Shown here: positions 3,151-64,000 of the stretch, in pieces
How the letters are laid out: the number at the start of each line of letters is the position of its first letter
Numbering within the stretch: position 1 is the stretch's first letter
Source: Prorocentrum cordatum
Lineage: Eukaryota > Sar > Dinophyceae > Prorocentrales > Prorocentraceae
NCBI GenBank assembly: GCA_963575745.1
Contig: CAUYUJ010014206.1
Span: 319,979 to 383,978, forward strand
Direction: 5' to 3'
Length of the DNA: 64,000 nucleotides
Translations under genes and position numbers: made by a program
Notes under the pieces: generated by a model
Databases searched by the model: none
Told to the model about the DNA's origin: nothing
What the model saw: the letters and a program-made list of their open reading frames with translations, nothing else

Positions 3151-6100
3151 GTTCTCGCGACCGCGTGCGATTTGATTGTTGCTCGGGCAACATGCTGGAT
3201 TCTTTTGGTTTTTCAAGCATTTGCCGCAGGGCCCCCCAGGATTGGGGGGATTCCTGGAGGGGGGGTTCAGCAGGGGCGGTCGAGGATCCTGAAGAGACCC
3301 ATGAGTGAGTTCCTCAGGACCCATCACGATCCCCGAGGGATTCCTGACAAGAGACAACCTTCTGGAATCCAGAGGATCCCCGATGATCTTCGGCAATGGC
3401 ATTCGGTTTCGCGGGAGAGGTTCGGGAATATTTCAGGCACCGTCGAGGGCCCCCTGGGGGCGCCTAGAGGCCCAGCAGGATTCCGCAACGAGGCGCCTGC
3501 ATGGATCGTCCGGTTTAGTCAGAGAGCCCCCAGATTCCTCTGGGCCCCCCCCAGGGGTTCTCAGGGATCGGGGGGGGGGGGTCGTCGGGATTCCGTGGGA
3601 GTGCTCAAGGATTGGCACGGGCCCATGAGATATTCTTTTGTTCTTTAAAAATTTCGAAGCATCCCGGCGTTCTTCGCGGACGCCCGGGCACGTCCAGGAA
3701 ATGGCATCGGGGCGCCCGTGATCGCGCGCCAGAGCCCTTGGGGGCACGGGTCGTAGGTAGAGGGCGCTCGCGCAGCGCGCCCCAGGACCCAGCGTCGCAG
3801 GCCCGGGGGGCTCGCGTCGCAGCTCCCGGGGCGCGGCGCCGCGGCTTCCAGGGGCTCTCGCATTAGGCTCCAAGAGTGACCCTCAAGCCGAAGACGCATT
3901 CTGGACATCATGGGGCGCGCTCGTCTGGAAAGTTCCTCGCGAGATCCCCGGCAATCGCCTGCCGGCCCTCGTCGCTGTTCTTCTTTCTTCTTCCCCATCG
4001 CCCCGTGACCGGCTGCCCATGCCGAGCTGGAACTAGACGACATGGCGAACGGCAGATTTTCTGACGCGGGCAACATTCCCTCGCAAGTCGCCGCCGTGGA
4101 CTTTCCATCGCGAACGCGCAAGCTGCAATGCTGGGCATTCCATAGCACTGCTCTGTCCAAGAAATGATAAGGAATGCTTAGCGCGTCTACTTGGAATCGG
4201 GGCCGATCATCTCGCAGCCTCGGGGCCCTAGGCCGACCGCCCCGAAGGCGCGAGGCCCTGGGCCCCCGCCGCGTCGCCCGCGGAGTCTGGGGAGGCCGCT
4301 GGGGGGCCCATCCCCGCCGGCGGCCAGCCTGGGGCGCCAGCGGGCTCGGCGCGCCTGGCTCTGGCGCCGTTCGCCAACATCGCAAGGCGCGGCGGCCCCA
4401 TCTGGCGAGGATAGGGCTGCGTGTGCTAGCGGTGCCGCGCCTAGTCGGCCAAGTTTCCGTCGGCCACATCAGGAGCCCATTGTGTCTAGCATCGTCCCTG
4501 AGGCTACCCGTGAGCATGCGCGACGCCACCACTTGGTCACCGCGGCCCCTCTCGCGCGCTGAATCAGTTGTGGCGGGCCAGCGTCCACCAGGCAATCCCC
4601 CGCGTTAGTGGCGGCCTGCGGGGGGCCAGTCGATCGGGGCGCTCGCCGTCTCCGCGCCGCGGCCTTCAGAAATTCCGAGGTTGGGCGCCGCCCGCGAGCG
4701 GGCGTTTTCCCGGGCGAAGATGCGCCCCGAGGCTGGGGCAGTCGCGTTTTAAGTTTGTGTGATCTTCCAGTTTTGGCAGGCTGCGGACCCCATCAGATCT
4801 GCGCCCCCCCTCCCCCCCCGCCCCCCCTCTTCGGACAGCCTGGGGGGTGGCCAACTGGAAGGGCCAGCGCGGCCTCCGCTGGCCCCCCGCGGGCCGCCGC
4901 AGACCGCCGCGCCCTTGCCTTTGCAAGCCCGCAGACCCCAGCGGGGGCACTTGGCATTTGCGCGGGCCGCCCCGCGCATCGATGAAATCAGATCGCGGGG
5001 CGCAGCGCGCGCCGCGGGGGGAAATTCCACGGCGCGCGTTGCGCCCCGCAGGAGGGCGCGGCGAATTCGCCGCGACGCGCAGGCCGGCGCCGCGCTCGCG
5101 CACGCCGCGCCCTCCCCATAATCGGATTTCCCGACCCCCGAGCCGCCGCCGCCACGCCAGAAGGGTTGGCGTCGAAGATGGCTGCGCGCTGGGGCGCCCT
5201 CGGACCCGCGCTCGCGCCGCCCGCGGCGACCCCGGCGAAGGGGGCGCCCGCCTGGGCCGCTCGCCGCATTGAACCTCTCCGCGCGGCGAAGTCGCATTTG
5301 AGGAGGGACCGCGGCCTTCCTCGCCGCGCGCCGGCCTCGCTGGCCGCCGCCGCGGTCGGGCCGCCCCCGGGGGCAGCGCCTTCTTTCGAGCGCGCTCATG
5401 GACGCAGCGACCGCCTGGTTAAAGGGGCCCCCACCAGCCGCGTAAACTGCGCTGCTCGGCCATCCAGCGCAGGCCAACGTCGGATGTTGACGAGCCTTTC
5501 AGAACTTGCTCCGCTGTCGTGCGTTCCTGGGTCAGAACTTCGAGGGCGCGCGCCCCCCCCCCCGCCGCCTTCGCCTTCGGCCCCGCGTTGCCGGGGGCGG
5601 CCCGGCAAACGTGGAGTTAGGGGTCTCCGCGGAGGGCTCCACATGCGCGTCGCAAAGCACTTCGACGGGGCGCAGCGACGCTGTCCTGAAATGCGCCATC
5701 GGCCAAGGTGTCGCGCGCGTCGCTGCGCCGAGCGAGACAACGAGCAGCGGCCGCGCGCCGCCGCGCCGCGCCCGCTGTCGCTGCGCGAGACATGCGGCGA
5801 ATGGCATGCGGCATATGTGAGTGGGAATCGCGCGGCAACGACGGCAGCGACGGCGCTGCTGCTGCGGCAGCGGCGGCGCTGCTGCAATGGCACGACGGCG
5901 CTGCTGCTGCGAGCGGTGTTTGCGACACGTTCGGCGGCTGTGCCGCGCGTCGGCTCTGCCCGACGCCACCGCGTGGCTTTCGCGGTTGCAAGTCGAGTTT
6001 GCACCGTGCAGGTGCCGGTATTTCCAGCATCACGGCGTCGTGGGTGGGGTGGTGTGGCGTCTTGTTTGGCCCATGTGCTTTGTACTTGCAACTCAGATGA

Positions 6101-8505: not shown

Positions 8506-10228
8506 CTACGTCGCACCTTGGAATGGGGAGCGCCTGGTGCGTTCTATGTGCTGCGGCTCAGCGTGTCGCTGGCGACTGATCCTCGCACGTGCCCATGTGA
8601 GGGCAACCATTTCTGATGTAGTAGAATTGTGAGGTGCGGTGTCGCCGTTGTTGTTGGGGCCGTTTGTCCTGACGGCCATGTTGCCATTGTCTGCGAATCC
8701 GTCCTTGTCCTCTGCGACAATGACGACTGCCCATGTTTCCTTGGTCGATATGTTGCTGGTGTGTGTGCCGTCCGTGTAGGTTGGGTGAGAGTGCTCCGAG
8801 GTGGGCAAGGATGCGCGTCGTTGAAAAAAAGAAGCGAGAGGCTCGCTAGGCGTGAAGGGAGGGCACATTGGCTGTAGGTTGGTGCCTGTCGTCCACATGT
8901 GGACGTGGCAAAGATCTTGGCTGTAGGTTGATTCCTTGCAAGTCCTCGTTCCTTCCAAGCGAACCCATTGGTACCACTTGGTGGTTGCGGCCCGCGCAGG
9001 GCGTCGTTCCCTTTTCTTGCTTTCCGTTGGTTTGCAGGTCGTGCTGTCACCGTGTGTCTCTTTCGGTCTAGGGTTTGGGTGTCCAGTCGCTGTATTTCCT
9101 GGTGTGCCAGAGGCTGTGTCGCCTGACGTTTCGGCTACATGTATGGAAACGCTTCGGGCGTGCACCACGTAGCTTTCGTCGTCCACGTTCCGTGTAAACA
9201 AACAATACTTTCTACTCGGCACATGCATTCTGAAAACTGCCATTGCTGGGGGCTGTCGTCGAATTCTTGGATCCTCCTCTGTGCTAGCGGTTGCATGGAA
9301 GGGCGGGTTATTTTGGGCTGTGTTGTTTCAGTCACAGGTGGGCGCGGCCTCTGATTCTCCGCACCTCTTCGTGCTCAGCTTTGCTTACCCCCGCCAGGAA
9401 CGGGGTCGTCCGTCATGTCGTCGTCACCCGCCAGTATTGGCATGCTTGAGTGGTCTTCGTCTGCTGAGAGAGGGAAGCGCAACTGCCTCCTAGGGTGGTC
9501 GGATGTCTTGCGGCTCGCCTTAGGTATTGTCGATGTCTCGTCTCTTCCTTTGTGCGGTCGGGGGCTTTGTGATCGGGACTTGCCAGGTGTACCCATGCAT
9601 TGGCATCCCCGTGCTTGTTCTGGTGTCATTGGCTCGTCTGGTGCTGACTGCATCGGGGGCCCCGGACCCCGTAACGGAGCCGCTAGGGCAAGGCATCCGA
9701 CGGGGATCGTTTTGTCGTCTTGTCCGTGTTTTGGTGCTGCAGCCCAGACATGTCATGCGTTGTGGGGGTTATCGTACTTCGGCGATGGCCTCCTCAAGTC
9801 CGTTGGTGCGTCGTGTGAGCACGCTCTCGAATGTGATCTCGACCTTTCCTTGGGGGTCGGCTGCTCTACGGGCATGGATCTCTATGTCACATTCGTCGAT
9901 CGGTGCTCAAACAGTCTTGGGTATGTAATGGGCGTCGGTAGGAATGCGTTGCCTTGCTGGTGTCTCGGCGCCGGTGCATCGCCGAGGGAGCCTATTTGTC
10001 GTCTGGTGGTGTCGGCGTTGTTGTGCCTTCTTGGTTGGTTTCCTCAGTTGTTTTGGGCGTCGTGGTGCCGTTTTTTTCTGCTTGGCGCACGTGTGGTAGA
10101 CCATATCGGTTTCTTCCAATTCCTTTTTGAGATCCTGCTCCCTCTGCGTTGCCTCCTGGTACTCTTTGCGTTTGTTGTTGTCCCTGATAGTTTCCCTCCG
10201 CACGTCCTCCATTGTGTTGGCGATCCAT
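8506..10228 (-). pseudogene. antisense protein-like sequence, function unknown (left part)
   Basis: The minus strand reads like genuine decayed protein. One segment starts at MEDVRRETIRDNN (10212 downward) and continues as a charged, coiled-coil-like stretch containing LKKELEETDMVYHTC. Another near 9785-9895 contains GKVEITFESVLTRRTNGLEE. A third, at 8506-9243, is a 245-codon open frame rich in Thr and Asn. No domain is recognised. It stops exactly where LINE-1 begins, and similar sequence resumes beyond LINE-1 at 17.27 kb, which suggests one older unit split by the insertion. Confidence 0.4.
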
Positions 10229-10242
10229 TATTTCCATCCTTT
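10229..10242. repeat. target-site duplication of LINE-1, left copy
   Basis: The 14 bases TATTTCCATCCTTT at 10229-10242 recur exactly at 17253-17266. They flank the spliced-leader relic on the left and a short A run on the right, as expected for target-primed insertion of a LINE. Confidence 0.85.
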
Positions 10243-10259
10243 AGCCGTTCTGGCCCAAG
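10242..10259 (+). other. decayed spliced-leader relic at LINE-1 5' end
   Basis: TAGCCGTTCTGGCCCAAG matches the last 18 bases of the dinoflagellate spliced leader (TAGCCATTTTGGCTCAAG) at 15 of 18 positions, and all three differences are transitions. It begins right at the target-site duplication and lies 122 nt upstream of an ATG at 10381. The same arrangement occurs in LINE-2, where the leader is exact. This implies that LINE-1 was copied from a trans-spliced RNA. Confidence 0.75.
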
Positions 10260-10380
10260 TTTTTGGGCTTGCAGCCGCAGTCTTCAGAGCGGCAGCCGCT
10301 GCTGCGAGTCATTGTGGCAACAGCGTTCTTGCGCCTCCCTGAGGCATCCTCTTCCGCGCCAGTGGAGCGCTCCACGGCAG

Positions 10381-11603
10381 ATGGTGTCGATGTCTTGCCA
10401 GGGCCGCGCGCGCCATTCTGGTCGTGTTCGTGTGGGCTCTCGTCAAACTGGGCTTCGCGCCTGGTCTGTCGCTGCGGCAAACCCGCCCCCGCGGCGGTGG
10501 CCAAGGCAGCCCGCGGGAACGCAAAGCATGCTCAACGTACTACTGCTGGTGGTCAACAGCCTCGTCAGGGACTCGGGGCTCGCACTGGCAGCATCACAGC
10601 GGCAAAGCTATCCAAGCAGCCTGCCGAACTCCAGAAGAAGTATGATAAATTGGTTGGGAACGGCAATGGTGGCAGTACTAACAATGCTGGCGGGCCTCCT
10701 GTCGGCGCTGGTGCTCCCCCAGAACCGAGTGGAGGCGAACGTAAGGAACAAGCGCTACGTGACAACATCGAGCAGCTGGAACAGGCCCGCACCGCGGTGG
10801 ATAAGGTGCCCAACAGTGATGAGGCCAAGGCTGCTCTGGATGCGCAGTTGTCTGAGGCGCGCAAGCAGTTATCTAGCCTCAAGCCTGAGCTCACGGTCCA
10901 CACCAACATTGGGCACCGTTTGCAGCGGGCGGAGGCCAAGGTCGAGAAGATATCAGCTCAAGTCTCCGAACAGCTCGACGTTCTTCGTTTAGCTCAGGAG
11001 AAGTTTGACAGCCTACAATCGCAACACTTGTTGGCGTCTAAGGAGGTGGAGCAGCTACGAGGTGAGCTCGTGGCGACACTCCCATCCTCGGTGGCCCAGA
11101 AAGATGTCGGGCTCGATATGCAGGACTTGGCGGAGAATGATGATGAGCAGGCTCAGCTGGATGCATTCTTGCAGTCTTCCCACTTCAAGCTCTACCAGGA
11201 GGCCCTCGCGAGGAAGGCCAAGGCGAAGCAGAACAGTTCTCGTGCTTCTACTTCGCCTTTCGATCAAGATGGTGATGTTCGCATGGGCGAGCGGAGTGGG
11301 TCACCTGCAGCGGCGCGCGATACAGCTACTGCCAGCGGTGCCCACCCGGCCGCTGCCGCCCACGATGTAACAAGTACACCCCCTCCAGCTGCGCCAAGTA
11401 CACCCTCACCAGCCGCAGCTGGCGATGCAGCGCGAGCAGCTGGAGGCGGAGGTGACCTCGGTGGACTGCACCATGAAGTCCCACCAGACCCCGAGCTGGA
11501 CCAGGAGATGGACGCGCTCTTCTGGGCCGCGCAGCGCGTGGGCAAGCGGATCTTCCACGCCCAGCTTGCTGAGCTGCTGGCCAAGCGGCAGCGCTTGGGG
11601 TAA
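10381..11603 (+). pseudogene. LINE-1 ORF1, zinc-finger and coiled-coil protein
   Basis: This is the putative nucleic-acid-binding protein of LINE-1. The frame ending at 11603 is open from 10245 but has no ATG before its domains. The ATG at 10381 lies one frame away and matches the ORF1 start position of LINE-2, so a single-base indel just after the start is likely. A RanBP2-like zinc finger (FWSCSCGLSSNWASRLVCRC) lies near 10418-10480. A long charged helical segment follows at about 10740-11060, then acidic and Ala/Pro/Ser-rich text, and a C-terminal helix ending KRQRLG. ORF2 follows in a different frame. Being a retrotransposon ORF1 rests on position and on similarity in plan to LINE-2. Confidence 0.75.
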
Positions 11604-11656
11604 CCCTGCCACTTTTACCTAGATGCTGTGGTTTTCGCCTGACGCGCGCAGGCGCT

Positions 11657-14600
11657 GTGCAGCCTCCCCCCGCTCCTCCTCGCCTCGACCCCGACTGTGA
11701 GGAGGGCTCGTCTGGTTATGGTGGAGTGCTGGAGTCCTATAACGGCAACTCTTGGGGGACCCTGGGGGACAGGCTGGCGGTCAGTTCGGCCCTCATTTTT
11801 CTGGCCCAAGAGGTGGGGTTCACTGAGGACTACTTGGGTGAGAAGTGCGCGGCTGTGGGTAAGTCGGGGTGGAAAATGCTGGCCTCCCCGTCGACGGTTG
11901 GGACCAAGGGTAGGCCCACATGGGGGGTTGCGGTGCTTGTGCGGTCCCATATCGGCCTGAGATGGCCAGTCTGCGGCGGCGTCATTGTGCCGTCTCGAGT
12001 CATGAAAGTGGTCCTTGACATCCCTGAGTGGCCCCCTCTGTCCGTCGTCTGTGTGTATCTGAAGAGCGGCACTGGCATGTGTGATCTGAACGTGTCTTAT
12101 CTGAAAACTATCGGTCGTGCTTTAGAGCACGACAAGCTCTTTGTCGTCGGGGGGGATTGGAACTTGGACCCTGCTCTGGTTGAAATGTCTGGACTGGCGC
12201 GGCGTCTCGGCTCGCTGCTTTTTGTTCCCCCAGGTAAGACTTGTGTCAGTGCCAATGCTCTCAGCACTATCGATTTCTTCCTGTGCAGCTCGACTTTCAC
12301 GCGAGCCGTCAGCAAGGTCGAGTGTGATCGTTATTGGAGCTCCCGACCGCACCACCCAGTGCGATTGCAGCTCAAAGATCAGGTCACGCGTCTGCATCAG
12401 CTAGTGTACCGTTGTCACCAGAGACTCCCAGTGGAGCCACAAAACGGTCCGCAGCCTCAGCCACAGGATTGGAACGCCCCGAGAGATATGGCCGAAACCG
12501 CGGCCCGAGCTGCCCTCGAGAGCCCCGTTGGATTCGCTTGGGAACTTCTCACGAAGGCGTGGCAGGCGTTCTCTACTTGCTTGGAGCTTGAACTTGAAAG
12601 TTTTCTGGGAGTGCCGATTAAGGATAAAGGGCTCAAAGGTGTGACGCATAAAGCTGCTTGGGTCCCCATCTTGTCTACCCCTAAAAGTGCTTGTACCGAG
12701 CTGGTTAGCCACGGACGGGTTTGGTTATCGCAGCATGTTTCAGAGACTCTAGGCGTGGCGACACGGCTGCTGGCGGCCGCGCAAGACGCCGCGGCGGACC
12801 CTGTGCGGGGCGAGAGCTTGGCAAGTGACACCGCTCAGCAGGTGCAGCAACTTTTACATGAACCGTGCCCTGGTGAGGGCTTGTCTGCCAGGCTGGATGC
12901 GACGGTCCAGTCGGCTAGGACTCTCTTGCAGCATTGGCCTCCGTCCTCGCTCGAGCGATGGGTGCAAGAGCTGCGCGAGTACCCCGCCTCGTGGGAGGAC
13001 GACCGCGTAGCAGCGCAGAAGGGTCTCGGGAAGGCCAAGCAGGACTCATGGGATGAATGGCAGGAGAAGGCGTTGAAAGGGGGTGCTAGGGCCATGCGCA
13101 GGCTCACTAAATTGAAACAGAAGTGGGTTCCCACGGTTGTCGAGTCGTCCCCAGGTCAGTTCAGTAGCGACCCTCAGGCTCTGCTGAGGGCTGAGCGTGA
13201 CACGCTTTCCCGTTTTTGGCATGCGTCTGACAAGCCAGCGCTCGTTGATGTCCCTGATCGTGTTCACCTGCCGAGGGCCTCGCCCGAAGCTATTCGCAGT
13301 GCCAGTGCTAGCTTCTCTCCGCTCACGGCGCAATCTTTAGATGGAGTGCATCCTCGTCAATTGTCGCTGGTGTCGGACGCGGCTCTTGAAACTTTGTCGG
13401 CGTTGTATCAAGCTGTGGAAAGTTTAGGGCTCTTGCCCAAGCAGCTGTTTTGGATGCTCTTCCCCCTCCTCGAAAAACCAAAAGGGGGGCTTCGACCCAT
13501 CTTGTTGTGTGCTGGGCCCGTGCGTGTTTGGGAGCGACTGAGAAGACCCGAGCTCCCCCGCTTTAATGATAATTTCCCCCGACGTTTCTGGGCTTTCGGT
13601 CCAGGGCGTAGTGCTGAAGATGCCGTGTGGCATCTGGCTACCAGGGCCGAGGTGGCGGCGCATTCTGGCAAGCATACGGTGGGGGTGATTTGGGATGGGA
13701 CCAAATACTACGAGAGTTTCGATTCGGATTTGTTGAAGACCCGCGCTTTGGCCCACGGCTTTAACCCTGTGATTGTCAAAACGACGTACAGTTTTTGGCG
13801 GGGACCCAGGCTTTTGAGACTGGGTGCGCAGTACGCTGACTCCCCCGTCTTTGCCCAGTCGGGATTGCCAGCGGGTGACATATTCAATGACTTGTTTGTC
13901 AAGGTTTATAGCATAGAGGCTTTCGACCAGTGCACTTTGGAGCACCCGCTGGTCCCCCTGAGCAGCTATGTTGACGACGACTCCCTTACTACGGAAGGTG
14001 AGTCCGAGACCGAGGTTCTCGACCGAATGTGCAGGGCTGCAGCGGCCATGTACATTATCTTTCGCGATTATTTGAAGGTGCAGTTGCAGGCGGACAAGCT
14101 TACCACGTTCGCTAGCTCGTCGCCCCTTGCACGTAAGCTCGGCAGGCTGCTCGGCGGCATGGCGGGCACTGTCACCAATAGTGCGGTGGTGCTGGGCACC
14201 GACCTGGCCACAGGACAGCGACGGGGGGCCAAAAACGCGGGGTGGAAACGTCGGCAGCGTCTCAGGCAGATGCACGCCCGGCACACGATTTTAAAAAGGT
14301 ACCGTGACCGTTTGCCTCGCCAGAAGGGGCGGATCGGCAAGATTTATGTTGCGGGTGTTTCCCCTGCTGCTACGTTTGGCGCTGCCGTCGGAGGGTTAGA
14401 CGACACTGAGCTTCAGGAAGCTCAAAGAGTCGTGTTGACCTACAAACCTCCTTATCACCGCGGGGTGTCGTTTCACGCCAAGTTAGCGCTCTCGGGGGAC
14501 CCTGTCTGGAGGGCGGGAGTTGCGCCAGCGTTGCACTGGGCGCACATCGTTTGGACTGCCCTCACTTCCCCCTCCTCCTCTCACTACAACATTAAGGAAA

Positions 14601-16441
14601 TATGTCAGATGTGGTGTGCTGTCCCCATGGACGAAGAAGTCACTTGGAAGAGTTCGCGAGGGCCCATCCAGATAATGCATTTGTCGTTGAATCGTATTGG
14701 GTGGCGCAGTGTTTCTGCTCTCGCGTGGCTCGACGACGCTGATAGAGTCGTGCATCTTGGGTATAACTCGCCTGCCCTCCTAGGTCAGTTGCTGCAGCTC
14801 GGCACTCAACGACACCATGAGAGAGTTTTGGCTAGGCTCCTGCCGCCCTTCAATGGGACGCGTGTTTGCACGGAACCCTTGGCCCGATTGTTGTGCCCCG
14901 AGTCCAAAAAGTTGGCCCCGAGGGAAAAATACCTTGTCACCACTGCGTTTTGTGAAGGACTCTGGACCAGAGCCAGAGCCCGAGCTTCAGGCTACTTCTG
15001 CGATGGCAGGTGCCCACTCTGTGGCGAGCCTGACGGAGTCAGGCACCGCGCCTGGAAATGTCAGCATCGCGATGCTGTCCAGGCTCGGCAAGATGCGGCT
15101 GTTGATCATCCCGAATGGTTGCTGGAGGCGACCGAGAGCGCGCATCACTGCTTCTGGGGCGAGCTCAAGTTGGACCATCCAGGGTCGAAGCTCCCTCCGC
15201 CCAGCTCCGACCCCAACCCGAAGCTGTTCAATCCCGAGGGGCAGGAAATTGTTTGGGACTCCATTGACCTCCAGGGCCTGGACATTTGTATGGGCGGTTA
15301 TTGTGCTCGTCATGTTGTGAGGGATTTGTCTCGGGCCGCCTTCGCTTGGGTCTTTTTGGACCCGTCAGGGTCGATTGTTGCTTATGATCAAGGAACGGTG
15401 CTGGACGTGCTCCAGCAGACCCCGCAGGCGGCTGAGCACCAAGCCATGGCGCTGGTGCCCTTGTTTGTTGAACACAGCGGGGATCGTTATTCTGATTGTG
15501 CCACCGTCACTAAGTTGTGAAACGCGCCAGTGCAGCATCAGATCTCGAGAAAACACCGCTACGCGGGAATGCGCCGTGGGGCTTCTCTGAATGAGAAACG
15601 GGGCCATGAGTGCAAGGTTATTCACACGCCAGCCCACCGCTCTCAAGCGGTTATCGATAGTCTCCCAGGGCCTGAGAGAAGGATCGCTATAGGTAACCAA
15701 GCTGCGGATGCCTTAGCCAAGCAAGCTCTCCTCCTCCACCCTCAGGCCCCTCCTGCGGTGCACCAAGAAGTTAGCGATGATATTGATAAATTAGCGTTCG
15801 CGGCCAAGGTCATGGCCAAAGTTTTGTGCGTTTTCCCCGTCGAGAAATTCGAGCGGCCCCAGTCTGGACCGAGATGTAAATTTTTACGGACTGGAGGGTG
15901 GCACCACTGGGAAAATCTCGATGGGGGCCGTGCCAGGTGTCTGTGATGCCTTCAGTTGAGTAGTGACCCTGACAGCCGGCCTGAACTGGGCTGCCGAGGG
16001 CCGAATCGTACTTGGAAGGGTGTTCTGGATTTCACCAAGGGCCAAACTCTCGCGCACACGTTCGTCACGCGCAAGCAGAAAGTATCTAGCATGATGTTTT
16101 GTACCACGTGCGGAGCTTACACGTCCCGCCGATGCTTCAAGCTCGGTCAAGAATGTATCGGCAAGAAGATGCCAGGGGCTAAGACGACCCTCCCTAGGAT
16201 CATGTCTGGCCTCCACCCTCACTATAGGAACGAGGAGGATCGTGTTTCGTCCACTTCTCGAAGAGGAGTGAACTATCTTTGTTATGCTGCCACCGCTCCG
16301 CCTCCCCCAGAGGTCTCTCGGCCTGCCTTCGGGATGGAGGGACTGGTGCAGACGCCTGGGATGCTAGCGGTTCTGGCTCGCATCCAGGCACGTGAACTGG
16401 CGCGCGGGAGAACCCCACAGGCGCCAGACGGAGGCGGATAG
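11657..16441 (+). pseudogene. LINE-1 ORF2: endonuclease, reverse transcriptase, RNase H
   Basis: This is one continuous frame apart from TGA codons at 15518 and 15944. An endonuclease of the APE/EEP type comes first: FLAQEVG carries the catalytic Glu (11800-11820), GGDWNLDP the Asp/Asn (12150-12173), then STIDFFLCSS and HHPVRLQL. The reverse transcriptase follows with EKPKGGLRPIL (13471-13503), GRSAEDAVWHL, GLPAGDIFNDL and the catalytic YVDDDS near 13969. A Cys/His motif CPLCGEPDGVRHRAWKC lies near 15010-15060. The RNase H domain spans the first TGA (AAEHQAM, then IHTPAHRS and GNQAADALAKQ); its usual first Asp motif appears as CMGGYC, so it may be inactive. A second Cys cluster (FCTTCGAYTSRRC) follows at 16097-16135. 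The true start is uncertain; 11657 is a GTG. Confidence 0.88.
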
Positions 16442-16496
16442 TTCAGATTGACTTTCTGTGGCGCAGGGCCGCCCTTCAGTTGTCGTTTGATTGCAC

Positions 16497-16815
16497 GGCC
16501 CGATGCGACTGACCCTTTTTGGCAGGCATCCGTGCTAAACCCCACATCTGGGGCGAGTCTGGCAGCCGTCCTGGCGCTGTTTGCACCAGGGGTTTCTGGC
16601 CTCGTCGTCCTTGCGTGGGTGGTCGAGTCTTCCCAGTGGCGAGGGTTCGCCGTCTCGTTCTATTCTCTGCGCGGCCCGATGCGGCTGACCCTTTTGGCAG
16701 GCATCCGTGCTCTACCCCACATCTGGGGCGAGCCCGACGGTCGTCCTGGCTTTGCGGCGCCAGGGACTGTGGGCTCGTCGTCCTCTTGTGGGTGGTCGAA
16801 CCTTTTTCTTTGATT
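16497..16815 (+). repeat. 176-bp tandem duplication in LINE-1 3' region
   Basis: The block beginning GGCCCGATGCG, with CTTTTTGGCAGGCATCCGTGC and then CCCACATCTGGGGCGAG, starts near 16499 and again near 16675, a period of 176 bp. The second copy is diverged and shorter. A third weak echo (CCCCACTTCTGGGGGAAG) lies near 16870. No coding role is apparent. Confidence 0.75.
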
Positions 16816-17252
16816 TGGTTGTGTGCGTTCTCGTTGTGCGTGCGTCCGTCGTGCACGCGTGTCAGGCGCCCCACTTCTGGGGGAAGGGGCATGCACACCT
16901 AGGGTGCGCGTCTTCATGGTCCGAGCACTGTTGCTGTGGCCCTTGAGCTTTGGTTCTGGGCCCCAACATCTCTTTTTGTTGGCGTTGGGCGCGCGTCATC
17001 GTACAGGCTGCCTCGGTTCGGCCCGCTGCCGAGGTCGTAGCCTCACGCCAGATCCACACGGCTATCGCCCCATCTGAGGACGAGGCCCCGCTCGCTAGGC
17101 CGACGGATGTGGATTCTGGAACTGATTGTGAGGACTGTGCTTAACCTAACAAGTAGGTCAGCCAAGCACGGTCTTGGTTGTCGCACATCTTGTGCGCATG
17201 TCGGCTAACTGTCGCCGCCCTCGGTCCTGCCCACTGGCTCGCAGAGGAAAAA

Positions 17253-17266
17253 TATTTCCATCCTTT
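17253..17266. repeat. target-site duplication of LINE-1, right copy
   Basis: This is an exact copy of the 14 bases at 10229-10242, directly preceded by the short A run that ends LINE-1. Confidence 0.85.
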
Positions 17267-47059: not shown

Positions 47060-49812
47060 GATATTATTTGGATCGGGGTTCGGCCGAGCATCAGATCCGC
47101 CACTGGCATTCTCTTTGCAATGTTAAACGAGGTGAGGACGGCAAGATCATTCGCTCGACAGGGGCCGGACCTAGTAAAACGCAAGTAAAGATGGCCACGC
47201 GCAACCCCAAGAAAGCTACCATCGAGGAACGGAAGCTACAGAAACGTTCGTTGCTCATGCCCCGAAAATGCCGACCACAGGATTGGCTGTCCCATGGGGC
47301 GCTCATCGATCAGCCTTAACTTCAAGAGGGCACCGTGGGTTTGTCCCCATGGTGATGGTCGCGGATATTGTACCGATCCTAAGACAACGCCATATGAGGA
47401 GCAGTTGACGGAAGACGACTACGACCACGCCACATCCGATGAAACATCCCGATCAAACTTCATATGGAAACACTTGTCACCTCTTCATCCTCTGACGCAG
47501 TTCAATCGCGATTGGCACGCAGGGAAACCTGCTATTCCTTAATCAGAAGATGACGATCAACCAGAATCTGATGGAGATGAGGCTGACGCGACGGCCGAAG
47601 AGGTAGACCCCACGGACGCGGCCCCTGCAGGGCACGCGTCGAACGACTCCATTGCTACGGACGTCACGTGCAAAACGGACACCCCTATCGGTCCAGAGTA
47701 CGTTGTCACAGCAGATATGGATCGTTCTCCTGGAAGGCGGATTGCCTATCGTGCTGGAGGCGCGGGCTGGATAAATACCATCATCGGAAAAAAAGGTTTA
47801 GTTCTACCAAATACCATGTGGCTGGGAAGTAAAAGACCATTATCAATAACATGGCCCTCCGAATGCCAAGTGGTATCAACTTGAAACCCGGCCGGGCCCC
47901 CGCGCGACATGGGCCATGAGTGCTGGCAGGGGGCGCGACTAAGGCTGCCCCCGAGCCGAAGCCAGAGACGCCTATGGATATTCCTCCATCTTCGAATTCA
48001 TCGAGTCCGTCGCTTGGCCCTGATCATCTCAGACCCAAGCAGATGAAAAGGAAGAGCTCAGATGACCCCAATCCTGGAGACAGTGCGCAGCAACGATCCG
48101 CGGGGCGACCTGCTGACAGACGTCGACCCAGAGGACCGGCGGTGGCCGCCGCAGCAGCTGCGTTTCAAGGCACCAGAGCTCCTACTCCAAGGGATCCTGT
48201 GCCACGTCGCGGCCCTGCGCCGGGTCGGGCGCGCAGGACATGCTGGGCGCCGTCGCTGGAAGGGTCAACAAGGGACGCTTGTTCAACAAGGCGTGGCACC
48301 GAGAAGAGGGCAATGGCAACCTCATCGAAGGAACCAGGAATGGCCCCCAATAGTAAGACAGCCGAGTCCTACAACATCAAGGAGAAGAAACGCCATGACT
48401 TTGACATCCGCACCCCGCCAGGGACTCCTCGGACGCCTAGGAGAACCGCTGGCGCTGCCATATTGGCGGCTAACGCCACAGTTCCTGTCGCACTGGCGAC
48501 AGCTCAGAGCCGAGCGGGGCAACCTGCTCAGAGTTATGCGGGGCAACCTGCTCTTACTTTGGAAGTGCCAGTGGAATGCCGAGAGTACTGGGGCAAGTTA
48601 TGCTCGCCCAATCGCATGAAGATCAAGCCCGCAAATCATCCTCAATTTGACGATGGGGCCGATGGATACATTGCAGCGACTTGCGATCTCGAGGACGCCG
48701 CCGCCCTGGCTGACAGGGGCGCGCACGCGCGCCAGATGGTGCGCAATATTTTGCGCAGGCGCCCGGCACTTTCATACGATTCGGAGGGGGGCGACTCGAT
48801 TGGGGCCCTCGACGCAGAAAATCTCCGGAAGCCGCAGTTGAGCTATGAGGATCAGCGCCATTGTTCAGAGTGGCTTACGGCTGCTCTTCGTCATAAACCT
48901 TTCCATCTTTCTGATAGGTTCCTGCGTGAAGTACCATCCTTTGATGAATTTGATGGGCGGGTCGAGCTCGCAGAGCTGCTCGACCACTGGCCACCTGCAG
49001 GACATGGGCATTACCATCGCAAGGCCTGGAGACTGTGCGCCAGAAGCTCAAGAACCACCACTGGACGTACTAGGCTGTAGTAGCTGTGCTGAGCCTGATA
49101 GGCATGGTCGACCATGCTGGAATGCAGCAAAACAGGCTGTAGTTCAGGAAGTGCCAGTACTCCTCCGAGTCGCACGTGGCGTATTTTACTCGTCCTAGCA
49201 ACGGACACAGCAGCCCTGGGATAAAGTGCCCTGAATCTGTGTATATGAGAATTGCAGATTTAGCTTTTCCAGGTGCACATTGTTATCTTGTCCATGGTAC
49301 TCAGTGGGCAAGTGCCCCTAGCATACTCAACATCGGGCCGTCATGCCGCGCCAACGACACCAGCAACAAGAGGGGCATGCAGCTTGTGCATGGTTGCCTA
49401 TACCTTCCTGGTGACAATAAAATCAAGTCTGTGCGTTGATTCCGAGGTGTTGGTCATGGTTAGCTTGAAGAACCTGCTTCGGGACAATATGCTTATTTGG
49501 CGCTCAGCAAGTGACATCATCATGTCAGCAGGCCGTGACGGCAGAATTCCTCCGACCCACGTCGTTCAGTTCATCGGTATTCTGCCCAGCGAATATTGCA
49601 GGTACAGTCGCGTGGGACACGTATGGATCAATCCCTTGTATCTGCGGGGCAACCGATATCAGCCGTATCCAAGTGGTAATGTGTCTATCGGGAGTATGTA
49701 CGAAGATCGAAACGATGTATCAATTTTGAAAGACTGGTTCATCCCAAAAAAACCCTGCAATTAGAAGTGCCCCGAACCGACGCCCATTCAGGAAGTTGAG
49801 TTCTCAACAGTG
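47060..49812 (+). pseudogene. element B internal region after gag, Pro/Ala-rich
   Basis: Open frames at 47294-47542 and 47920-49080 look protein-like in part. A Pro/Ser-rich start (ETPMDIPPSSNSSSPSLG) is followed by basic text, AGQPA microrepeats at 48514 and 48538, and an end with QRHCSEWLTAALRHKPFHLS near 48855-48910. No domain is recognised. The stretch 47543-47919 and the sequence after 49080 hold only fragments. This lies where gag-protease linker sequence would be, but I see no protease motif. Confidence 0.4.

Positions 49813-60750: not shown

Positions 60751-60809
<59 letters not shown>
60712..60809 (+). repeat. GTT microsatellite
   Basis: Nearly pure GTT units with two interruptions (GCT and GTG). 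The run abuts the left copy of the 178-bp direct repeat, whose right copy starts with only two GTT units, so the array probably grew from the repeat's own end. Confidence 0.92.
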
Positions 60810-60980
60810 GAATTCTCACTTCTGAAGAATAGATATTGTTGATCCCCCACCACCGTTGCATGGTGTTTTTCCCAATCAAAGTGTGCCCCTCGACGCTCGC
60901 ACCCTGTTTTTTGACAGGGAAAGTCTTCCTGCTCAAACTGGGCCCCTGGCCCCCGGGTTACAACAACAACGGTTCCCGCC
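60804..60980 (+). repeat. 178-bp direct repeat, left copy
   Basis: It matches 61832-62010 almost throughout, including GAATTCTCACTTCTGAAGAA, TCAAAGTGTGCCCCTCGACG, CACCCTGTTTTTTGACAGGG and CCCCCGGGTTACAACAACAA. It begins GTTGTTG and ends with CAACAACAACGGTTCCCGCC, so its ends are short inverted repeats. It could be an LTR of a small non-autonomous element or a promoter monomer. Confidence 0.85.
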
Positions 60981-61537
60981 TGAGACTTCCTTGCAATTTA
61001 GCCAGGACCCCCGCTCCCGCCCGAGACTTCCTCGCATTTGGGGAATCGCGCTCTCGCTTGGGATTTCCTTACAATTTGGTTCAGGAATCGCTTTCCCGGC
61101 GCTTTGGAGTCGCGCTCTCGCTGGAGTTTTGCTTGCAACTTACTGATTTCGAAGAATGGCCTTGCGTTGGATTTCTTTTTGCAATTTGCCCAAGCGCCGC
61201 GCTCCCGACACCCAAGCACCCAGGAGTCGCGCTCGTTGTGGCCCCATGTGCATGCCCTTCGTGGCCCCGCTGTCGCCATTTCTGTCCCCTTCACTGTCCT
61301 ACGTGGCCCAGTTGCTACCCGCAGTGGCCCCACAGTTGCCTCCTGTGGCCCCGCATTATTTGCACTTCGTGGCCCCCGCTCGTTCGCGCTCTCCGTGGCC
61401 CCATACGGATTCCCTTCGTGTCCTCGCTGTCGCCCTTCGTGGCCTACTTCGTGCCCTTCGTGGCCCTGCTGTCGTTTTCTCTCGCTGTCGCTTTCGCTCG
61501 TCGTCGCCGTCGTCGTCGTCGTCGTCGGCCTCTTCGA

Positions 61538-61831: not shown

Positions 61832-62010
61832 GTTGTTGCTGAATTCTCACTTCTGAAGAATAATTATTGTTGATCCCCCCATCGGTGCATACTGTTTTTT
61901 CTCAATCAAAGTGTGCCCCTCGACGCTCGCACCCTGTTTTTTGACAGGGAAAGTCTTCCTGCTCAAACTGGGTCCCTGGCCCCCGGGTTACAACAACAAC
62001 GGTTCCCGCC
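61832..62010 (+). repeat. 178-bp direct repeat, right copy
   Basis: The second copy of 60804-60980. The similarity ends at GGTTCCCG(CC), exactly where the spliced leader of LINE-2 begins, so LINE-2 appears to have inserted at or just after this repeat. Confidence 0.85.
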
Positions 62011-62029
62011 GTAGCCATTTTGGCTCAAG
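62008..62029 (+). other. exact dinoflagellate spliced leader at LINE-2 5' end
   Basis: The 22 bases match the dinoflagellate spliced leader without a mismatch (core TAGCCATTTTGGCTCAAG at 62012-62029, with G at the variable first base). A genomic leader followed by coding sequence is the mark of a reverse-transcribed, trans-spliced RNA. It lies 124 nt upstream of the ORF1 ATG. It is not a spliced-leader RNA gene, because no GT donor follows the leader (GCTAAG follows). Confidence 0.95.
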
Positions 62030-62152
62030 GCTAAGCGTTGAGAAGGGCTATAGACGCCCGAGAGTCAGCGATTCGCTTTTGGCCGCGTCCGTGGCCATCT
62101 GTCGAGCTTGCGGCCAGCAGGTGGCCTGTTTTCTTTCTTCGACTCTCGGCAC

Positions 62153-63163
62153 ATGGCTCCCAGCGGGCCACGCAGCAATGGCAAACCCTCGTCATACTGG
62201 GGTGGCCAAGTCTGGACATGTGCAGTCAAGAAGTGCAAGTTCGCGAACAATTTCGGATGGAGGCGCACATGCTTTTGCTGTGGTGCCTCGAAGCCTGGCG
62301 CTGCGGGGTGTCCCAACGCGAATGCAGGCGACAAGGGTTCGGCCAAGGACGACGAGGTGGAGGACTGCCAGGTCGAGGCTTTTCTCGCTCTTGATGATGC
62401 TCAGTTTTGCGCTCTGGTGGCTCTTCTGCCCAGTCAGCAGCGTGGTCGCATCGTCGCTCAGCGAGCGGTCAAGTCTGGGGACCCCACTGCCGTCTTGAAG
62501 CAGGCCAAGGTGGAGCATGACGCGCTCAAAGCCAAGGTGTCCAAGGCCGCCGCAGCCCTGGACAAAGCCAAGGCTCAACTGGCTTCGCATGTGCTACGTG
62601 TCGCAACCCGGCAAGTCGAACATGATGAGCTGCTGGCGAAGGAGAAGGTGGCTGCCAAGCGCGCCGCCGATGCCTACGGCCAGCTCTCGGGAGGTGCGGC
62701 GGCTCCCGAGGCGAGTGGTGCATCTTTATCGGATGACCCTGCGGTCGACCTGCGCATGCAGCTGTGGCCCTTGGCTGTGAGGCCCCTGTGTTGGGTGACT
62801 TCGACAGGCTCATCACAGCCCGTGACGCTGCGGCGGCGAAACGGCAGAAAAAAGGCTGAGGCCGACAAGGTGCAGGCCGCAGCGTCTGATGGCGCGGCTG
62901 CATGCGATGGTGGCGCTGCTGCTGGTCCTGTTCCTGTCGCCCGCCCTGAGCCAGGCAGCGACGTCAGCATGTCCACCTCTTTCAGTGACCTCGACGGCGA
63001 CTGGATTGACAACCTCATCAAGACGGCCAACGAGGCACCTGAAGCAGCCGAAGGAGACTCTGAGGCCAAGAGCGGCATCACCCGCTCTGCCGTGCAGGCA
63101 GCGCTTGAGGAAACCTTCGAGCGCGCTAAGAAGGCTAAGCATGATAAAGCGTCGACGGGGTAG
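62153..63163 (+). CDS. LINE-2 ORF1, zinc-finger and coiled-coil protein
   Basis: The ATG at 62153 (MAPSGPRSNGKPSSYWGG) is the first good start after the spliced leader. It opens a frame of 336 codons. A RanBP2-like zinc finger, WTCAVKKCKFANNFGWRRTC followed by FCCG, lies at about residues 20-42. A long Ala/Lys/Glu-rich helix (ALKAKVSKAAAALDKAKAQL) follows at about 120-190. Near the C-terminus is an acidic SFSDLDGDWIDNLIKTANEA and a final basic ERAKKAKHDKAS. The plan matches LINE-1 ORF1, but the sequence is clearly different. The likely role is RNA binding in the retrotransposition particle. Confidence 0.82.
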   Translation: MAPSGPRSNGKPSSYWGGQVWTCAVKKCKFANNFGWRRTCFCCGASKPGAAGCPNANAGDKGSAKDDEVEDCQVEAFLALDDAQFCALVALLPSQQRGRIVAQRAVKSGDPTAVLKQAKVEHDALKAKVSKAAAALDKAKAQLASHVLRVATRQVEHDELLAKEKVAAKRAADAYGQLSGGAAAPEASGASLSDDPAVDLRMQLWPLAVRPLCWVTSTGSSQPVTLRRRNGRKKAEADKVQAAASDGAAACDGGAAAGPVPVARPEPGSDVSMSTSFSDLDGDWIDNLIKTANEAPEAAEGDSEAKSGITRSAVQAALEETFERAKKAKHDKASTG

Positions 63164-63231
63164 CCCGTGTCAGCATTCGCGGGTTCGTGCCCAAGGTGTC
63201 TGGACATTTATAACCTGCAGAGTTACAGAGC

Positions 63232-63955
63232 GTGCTGGGCTTGACATATTCCTCTCCTCTCCGCACTCAGAGCGCTGATGTGCTCGCAGTTCAGGAAACT
63301 CACATCGTGGATACAGAGGCGCAGGAGGCTGCGCTGCGTGCCCAGGGTCGTCGAGCTCACTTATACCCAGCTGTTCCTACGGGTCGCGGGGGCACTTCTG
63401 GGGGCCTCATGATCGCTACCCCGAAGCACCTTGGGTTATCTAGAGTGGAGGGCTACTCTGTTAATTTTGAACCAGGTCGAGTCGGTATGCTGCATCTTGG
63501 AGGCGTAATACCTGGGGGAACTTTGGTTGTCAGCATCTATCTTCGCCATCGTGTTGGTCTTTCCCCGCAAAACTGGCCGATTCTGGTGTGATCTTGGAGC
63601 CCAGCTCAAAGCTATTGGGATGCCTCTTATTCTGGTAAGGGATTTTAACCTGGAGCCTGAGATCTTAGACTACAGCGGATGGGTCACTGCTCTTGACGCT
63701 GTTATTGTTGCTACGGAAGGAGGGACCTGCCGCCCCGCGGATCGAGCGATCGACTATTTCGTCGTCAGCCGCGAGCTCGCAGCTGGAGCTCAGGCAATTG
63801 TGCTTTACGACGTGGCCACGGCGCCGCACTACCCTGTTCAGCTTAGGCTCGCTTGCACGAAGGACTCCTATCGTGTCAGGGTGGCGAAGGTCCCGGGGCG
63901 TTTCCCGATTGAGGCCCCTGCTGGACCCAGGAATCGGCCCCCCGAAGGCCGATGA
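63232..63955 (+). pseudogene. LINE-2 ORF2 start: endonuclease (frameshifted, partial)
   Basis: The APE/EEP-type endonuclease begins with ADVLAVQETHIVDTEAQEAA (63277-63336), which holds the catalytic Glu, and runs through GGLMIATPKHLGLSRVEGY to VVSIYLRHRVGLSPQ. The frame then stops at 63589. After a one-base shift near 63580 it continues LGAQLKAIGMPLILVRDFNL (Asp-Phe-Asn motif at about 63641, with Arg where Gly is usual), AIDYFVVSRELAAG and APHYPVQLRL with the catalytic His. The frame ends at 63955. The RT is outside the window. Confidence 0.82.
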
Positions 63956-64000
63956 GATCAGGCGAGTGCCGATGTGCAGTCTGGGGACATCTCGAAGTCT

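Follow-up and report, generated by a model that had tools for sequence, protein, structure and literature searches.

The two LINEs of the window

The analyzed window is a stretch of 64,000 nucleotides of Prorocentrum cordatum DNA whose forward strand carries two LINEs, here termed LINE-1 and LINE-2 (Table 1). LINE-2 is headed by an exact copy of the dinoflagellate spliced leader (SL), whose first position (G, at 62008) is ambiguous with the target. The first-pass annotation had placed an exact SL 124 nt ahead of the ORF1 start codon of this element, and this was borne out by the ATG at 62153, with 123 nt in between. Two copies of a target repeat, one of them without an element, share 93% identity (169/181), and this similarity stops where the leader starts, give or take an ambiguity of 3 nt: following CGGTTCCCGCC, the upstream copy continues with TGAGACTTCC and LINE-2 with the remaining SL. 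Since the SL is the point at which the upstream copy and LINE-2 diverge, the former could be used as an empty site. Target and SL overlap by the three letters GCC, and the first three SL bases may thus stem from either the element or the target. At this position, the SL forms the 5' terminus of a LINE. The flanking array picks up again near the window-equivalent position 69619 (84% identity over 160 nt to 61042–61200). A target-site duplication of LINE-2 was not found, the longest exact stretch common to both flanks being 9 nt. With some of the target lost as well, the insertion was either irregular or later altered.

The closest relative of the LINE-2 ORF1 product was the P. cordatum protein P0001 (52% identity; the one match among approximately 8,000 candidates scored). 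A full-length relative of LINE-2, L044, encodes an endonuclease (Exo_endo_phos, E = 3.8e-9, above the cut-off), a reverse transcriptase (RVT_1, E = 1.3e-6; 28.7 bits, just under the Pfam cut-off of 29.6), and an RNase H (RNase_H, E = 2e-6). For LINE-1 of the window, the corresponding matches were RVT_1 with E = 8.5e-6 (26 bits, just under the same cut-off of 29.6) and Exo_endo_phos with E = 3.6e-5 (24.1 bits versus a cut-off of 24.5), and a search with its ORF2 protein yielded two matches among approximately 8,000 scored candidates. The combination of a reverse transcriptase and an Exo_endo_phos endonuclease that characterizes LINEs was thus found in both L044 and LINE-1. Self-comparison of LINE-1 revealed an internal 3' repeat only, which is a direct repeat of approximately 135 bp (16492–16626 and 16668–16799; 82% identical). 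No ribozyme was detected by Rfam searches (E up to 1) of the regions around the 5' ends of LINE-2 (61950–62450) and LINE-1 (10200–10700). An osmY match on the minus strand at LINE-1 (20.4 bits versus a threshold of 46.9) was sub-threshold and taken as chance.

Table 1. Features of the two LINEs and of the LINE-2 target in the analyzed window.
Feature	Position	Strand	Remarks
LINE-1 5' target-site duplication, 14 bp	10229..10242	+	
Leader-like 5' end of LINE-1, conserved in the family	10242..10259	+	differs from SL at 3/18 positions
LINE-1 element, about 7.0 kb	10243..17252	+	
Open frame holding LINE-1 ORF1	10245..11603	+	no ATG in the window copy at the place of the relatives' start codon
LINE-1 ORF2 open frame (endonuclease and reverse transcriptase matches)	11573..15520	+	frame shift after it
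LINE-1 3' target-site duplication	17253..17266	+	
Target repeat without element (paralogous empty site)	60801..60980	+	
Target repeat 5' of LINE-2	61832..62010	+	
Exact dinoflagellate SL, 5' end of LINE-2	62008..62029	+	exact match; identity to empty repeat stops here; homology between LINE-2 copies starts here
LINE-2 5'UTR	62030..62152	+	first ~77 nt are a module common to many copies with different bodies
LINE-2 ORF1, 336 aa	62153..63163	+	weak RanBP-type zinc ribbon; coiled-coil-like
LINE-2 ORF2 start (endonuclease region)	63200..64000	+	frame-shifted in the window copy; runs beyond the window; from translations, domains in relative L044

Abundance of the spliced leader in the genome

Genome-wide counts refer to an assembly of 4,128,499,153 bases in 21,875 contigs, which includes the window. 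With up to three mismatches allowed, the SL occurs at 48,069 sites (121 with the reversed pattern), or approximately once per 86 kb. The SL is therefore not a rare feature, a single copy is to be expected in a window of 64 kb, and the informative part is its position. In two Symbiodinium genomes, 496 and 244 DinoSL sequences were counted by another method, according to an excerpt of the respective study (PMC8045281). Within the window, the SL of LINE-2 is the sole match with up to three mismatches, and none was obtained in 100 shuffles.

When 28 exact SL sites were compared by the DNA downstream of them (up to 420 nt), they fell into 23 clusters; as the SL leads into so many different sequences, it does not belong to any single family. 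Eight SL loci (L002–L009) had no match to LINE proteins in a tblastn search (1e-3). Zinc-ribbon-like motifs were found at sampled SL loci by a loose pattern, and in five of the 28 the available stretches were too short for a domain test.

A search for relatives on viral contigs retrieved one SL-bearing contig (L001, IMGVR_UViG_3300045993_001077), which is not a LINE. It is an AT-rich contig with glycosyltransferase genes, in which a GC-richer stretch at approximately 1780–2913 on the minus strand harbors an exact SL twice, along with a 267-aa open frame and an A-rich end. This stretch resembles an SL-cDNA of dinoflagellate origin that was integrated into a viral genome.

The leader as regular 5' end of the LINE-2 family

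Relatives of LINE-2 were searched with positions 62030–62352 as query, leaving out the SL; 40 of 266 candidates were scored and 30 loci fetched. At 20 of these loci the match reached the first base of the query, and in all 20 an SL or a relic of it was located directly upstream. An SL with up to four mismatches was present within 330 nt at 26 of the 30 loci (exact at 17) and lacking within this distance at L020, L021, L036, and L041. Some of the 26 SL-bearing loci (L022, L023, L024, L026, L030, and L035) carry another 5'UTR. The homology between LINE-2 and four other full-length copies (L042–L045) starts at the SL, and these copies end at a GGA run. Within the family, the distance from leader to ORF1 start codon was 122–124 nt in five of five full-length copies. 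A further locus, L046, has no more than the initial 98 nt (SL included) in common with LINE-2, indicating that the 5' module occurs on different bodies.

The module itself (first 27 nt 3' of the SL, up to three mismatches) was found at 402 genomic sites, and at least 355 of these also had the eight preceding SL bases; both reversed controls gave zero hits. For a sample of 40 module sites, taken from those listed outside the previously fetched loci, the 21 nt preceding the module were scored. They contained zero mismatches to the SL at 19 sites, one at 12, two at 2, and three at 3 sites, amounting to 36 of 40 with no more than three. The remaining four differed at 5, 6, 8, and 11 positions and appeared by eye to be eroded, gapped, or partial leaders. 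At one of the 40 sampled sites, L131 (G000:C7365), the leader is duplicated locally along with the initial letters of the module. Conserved sequence extending 5' beyond the leader, which according to the first-pass annotation would speak against a leader-headed family, was not seen by eye in any of the 40 copies. A chance origin of the LINE-2 leader was rejected based on the shuffles, the empty-site boundary, the genome-wide module counts, and the 40 sampled copies. Two details argue against trans-splicing: an SL is lacking at four of the 30 fetched loci, and 8 of 31 module copies have C as their first SL base. The D (T, A, or G) at this position of the SL does not cover C, except where this base is part of the target.

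Insertion into GGA/TCC microsatellites

The first 48 exact SL sites listed were preceded by TCC repeats in 22 cases, by GGA repeats in 11, and by other DNA in 15. As background, 1.1% of the 30-mers in the window count as GGA or TCC, compared with 21 of the first 28 exact SL sites (P = 8e-36). Genome-wide, one-phase patterns retrieved 2,657 sites for GGA plus SL and 8,569 for TCC plus SL, with zero hits for the controls. The 40 sampled module sites were flanked by GGA (n = 23), TCC (n = 9), or other sequence (n = 8). As read from these flanks, the data show that most LINE-2 copies reside in (GGA)n or (TCC)n microsatellites. The lack of such a flank at 15 of the 48 SL sites and on the 5' side of LINE-2 in the window counts against the explanation preferred below. 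Three loci (L079, L099, and L108) share a common sequence after the SL (gccatgga...) and have CA- or TA-rich flanks rather than GGA/TCC; they perhaps represent a family with another target.

The leader-like 5' end of LINE-1

LINE-1 begins with TAGCCGTTCTGGCCCAAG, which deviates from the SL by transitions only and overlaps by 1 nt with a target-site duplication whose two copies are identical (14/14). An 18-nt leader with three transitions directly at the target-site duplication had been described in the first-pass annotation and was confirmed as such, but not as decayed: the duplication is intact and the same letters occur family-wide, and decay of the leader after insertion was rejected on these grounds. 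A family search, in which 40 of 175 candidates were scored and 30 loci fetched (L047–L076), revealed a 5' end fitting AGCCGTT... at 25 of the 30 loci, including all 24 whose match reached query base 1 to 3, and TCC repeats directly preceded this end in 15 of the 25. The first ~50 nt are nearly invariant in the family at an overall identity down to 70%. This ~50-nt part alone is common to some LINE-1-type elements and might be an internal promoter or a structured RNA.

The ATG at 10381, previously proposed as start of ORF1, is out of the ORF1 frame. Among 11 LINE-1 loci with an ORF1 motif, there were nine in which 131 nt separate the A of AGCCG from the first in-frame ATG. A fixed distance between leader and ORF1, suggested to be common to both LINEs, consequently holds within LINE-2 but compares different things across LINE-1 and LINE-2.

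A fresh SL was present at three of the 30 LINE-1 loci, exact in L059 and L061 and with one mismatch in L075. The SL of L059 is joined to the LINE-1 5' end at its AG|CC. In L109, a locus from the SL sample, a fresh SL, a relic, and CCGTTCTGGCCCAGG follow one another at 15-nt intervals. Taken together, the 5' end of LINE-1 looks like a fossil leader that stems from an SL-bearing ancestor and would now be inherited as DNA. That it is a chance likeness and was never an SL might be argued from its differences from the SL, which are fixed and conserved family-wide; its exact position at the end of the element, the three mismatches in 18 positions, and the junctions in L059 and L109 make this unlikely. 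As LINE-1 copies mostly start at the fossil without a new SL, their template may be an unspliced RNA with its own start site.

The scarcity of fresh SLs in LINE-1 would also fit the notion that SL-tagged copies are by-products of occasional trans-splicing of LINE RNA, retroposed like host retrogenes, with the untagged form being the main one. Host cDNAs with leader relics are indeed known in dinoflagellates, as stated in excerpts of the relevant literature (PMC12014239, PMC6050394, PMC7245778). This notion fits LINE-1, but LINE-2 copies regularly have the SL (no fewer than 355 of 402 module sites; SL or eroded SL in 40 of 40 sampled copies), which refutes it there as main account. Overall, it is considered highly improbable.

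Is the leader regained or inherited?

In the five full-length LINE-2 copies, the SL is identical in all ten pairs and the next 80 nt are 86–99% identical. Their ORF1 sequences are separated by dS values of 0.055–0.888 and dN values of 0.019–0.21, with dN < dS in every pair. Among 17 LINE-2 copies, informative columns numbered 0 of 21 in the SL, 11 of 74 in the next 75 nt, and 48 of 67 in the following 70 nt. Taken by itself, the contrast between SL and adjoining module does not reach significance (Fisher p = 0.11), since the module is likewise conserved, and the case for regain therefore leans more on the occurrence of the SL before unrelated sequences and on tandem relics. The latter, tandem CCATTTTGGCTCAAG with a period of 15 nt, were found at 3,890 genomic sites (control 0) and in six of the 48 sampled SL sites. 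According to the accessible part of PMC12014239, CCATTTTGGCTCAAG is a relic described for dinoflagellate retrogenes. In terms of the DNA record, the tandem relics show repeated rounds in which a fresh leader would have been added onto an old one.

The alternative is that the LINE-2 leader is DNA-encoded, captured once, and now maintained by selection in the role of a start site or a cap-like 5' end, so that trans-splicing in each round would not be needed. LINE-1 exemplifies an inherited leader-like 5' end, which counts against the trans-splicing reading by demonstrating that leaders can be inherited, and the conservation of the module next to the leader points in the same direction. Set against this are the same SL before otherwise unrelated sequences (23 clusters from 28 sites), the tandem relics, which need new leaders on old ones, and the fact that the inherited letters of LINE-1 drifted from the SL but those of LINE-2 did not. 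We consider single capture rather unlikely on balance. The initial proposal that insertions regain the leader each time thus agrees with LINE-2, where copies begin with the SL regardless of their target, the SL is kept while coding sequence and 5'UTR diverge, and tandem relics occur, but fails in part for LINE-1, in which the leader-like end is inherited and mostly lacks a fresh SL.

Proposed life cycle

The most probable interpretation is that the LINE-2 family consists of target-biased LINEs that use SL trans-spliced RNA as template, and that the leader of LINE-1 is frozen and mostly copied without a new SL. Since the LINE-2 family starts exactly at the host SL, its front end seems to be borrowed from the host, and we infer from the DNA that trans-splicing is a normal part of its life cycle. 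The element would be transcribed, probably within a longer transcript, and everything upstream would be replaced by the SL through the spliceosome. The capped SL-RNA would then be translated, and the reverse transcriptase of the element would copy this RNA completely, up to the last base, into a GGA/TCC site. During the following round, a new SL could be joined behind the terminal AAG of the old leader, an exact replacement that would leave no trace and from which a single exact leader is expected. It could alternatively be joined after the TAG inside the old leader, which would leave CCATTTTGGCTCAAG as a relic and from which the 15-nt period is expected. At either joint, the old leader would serve as acceptor for the new one. 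In LINE-1, which would represent a sister group, the leader of an SL-bearing ancestor would have frozen into a conserved 5' end of the element's own.

Relation to known retroelements and significance

The DinoSL/DinoRL retrogenes of dinoflagellates resemble LINE-2 in the sequence of SL trans-splicing, reverse transcription, and insertion, and in having CCATTTTGGCTCAAG and tandem relics, as described in the sections available of PMC12014239, PMC7245778, and PMC6050394. Like these retrogenes, LINE-2 is a retroposed copy with an SL or relic at its 5' end. A host-gene parent is lacking, however: in retrogenes a host message is copied, usually as a one-off event, whereas the RNA of LINE-2 itself codes for endonuclease, reverse transcriptase, and RNase H. 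The LINE-2 family has many copies, and these regularly start with the leader. The ingi/L1Tc elements of trypanosomatids are likewise LINEs in a genome with SL trans-splicing and share a conserved 5' module of ~77 nt (Pr77). Unlike LINE-2, which carries the SL, Pr77 combines a promoter with an HDV-like ribozyme and gives rise to unspliced transcripts, according to excerpts of PMC8190864, and the Rfam searches around both LINE 5' ends of the window did not retrieve such a ribozyme. The LINE-1 family may be closer to the Pr77 way. SymbioLINE of Symbiodinium is also a dinoflagellate LINE, but is known for a DNA methyltransferase in ORF1, and the searched portion of text on it does not mention a spliced leader. 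Target-specific LINEs of microsatellites and other repeats appear to share with LINE-2 the insertion bias to simple repeats. Publications on an SL at LINE 5' ends were not noticed in the text searched, with preprints and most subscription journals outside the search.

A review, in its accessible part, calls the type of retroelement behind the SL-tagged retrogenes of dinoflagellates unknown and LTR elements more likely (PMC6050394). The location of SL sites mainly in GGA/TCC microsatellites, where the LINEs described here also lie, bears on the question of which retroelement makes these retrogenes. More tentatively, and with the balance leaning slightly against it, whole groups of LINEs in this dinoflagellate might rely on the trans-splicing of the host SL to obtain a cap and a defined start and to be released from longer transcripts, with the genomic leader acting as the next acceptor and the same LINE machinery with its GGA/TCC sites making the SL-tagged retrocopies.

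A LINE lands at random and still needs an RNA that is full-length and has its 5' end defined, for which the known solutions are internal promoters and ribozymes. If the proposed life cycle is correct, a 5' end taken from host trans-splicing would be another solution, by which an element could live on read-through transcription, and the tandem relics would be a countable record of its rounds.
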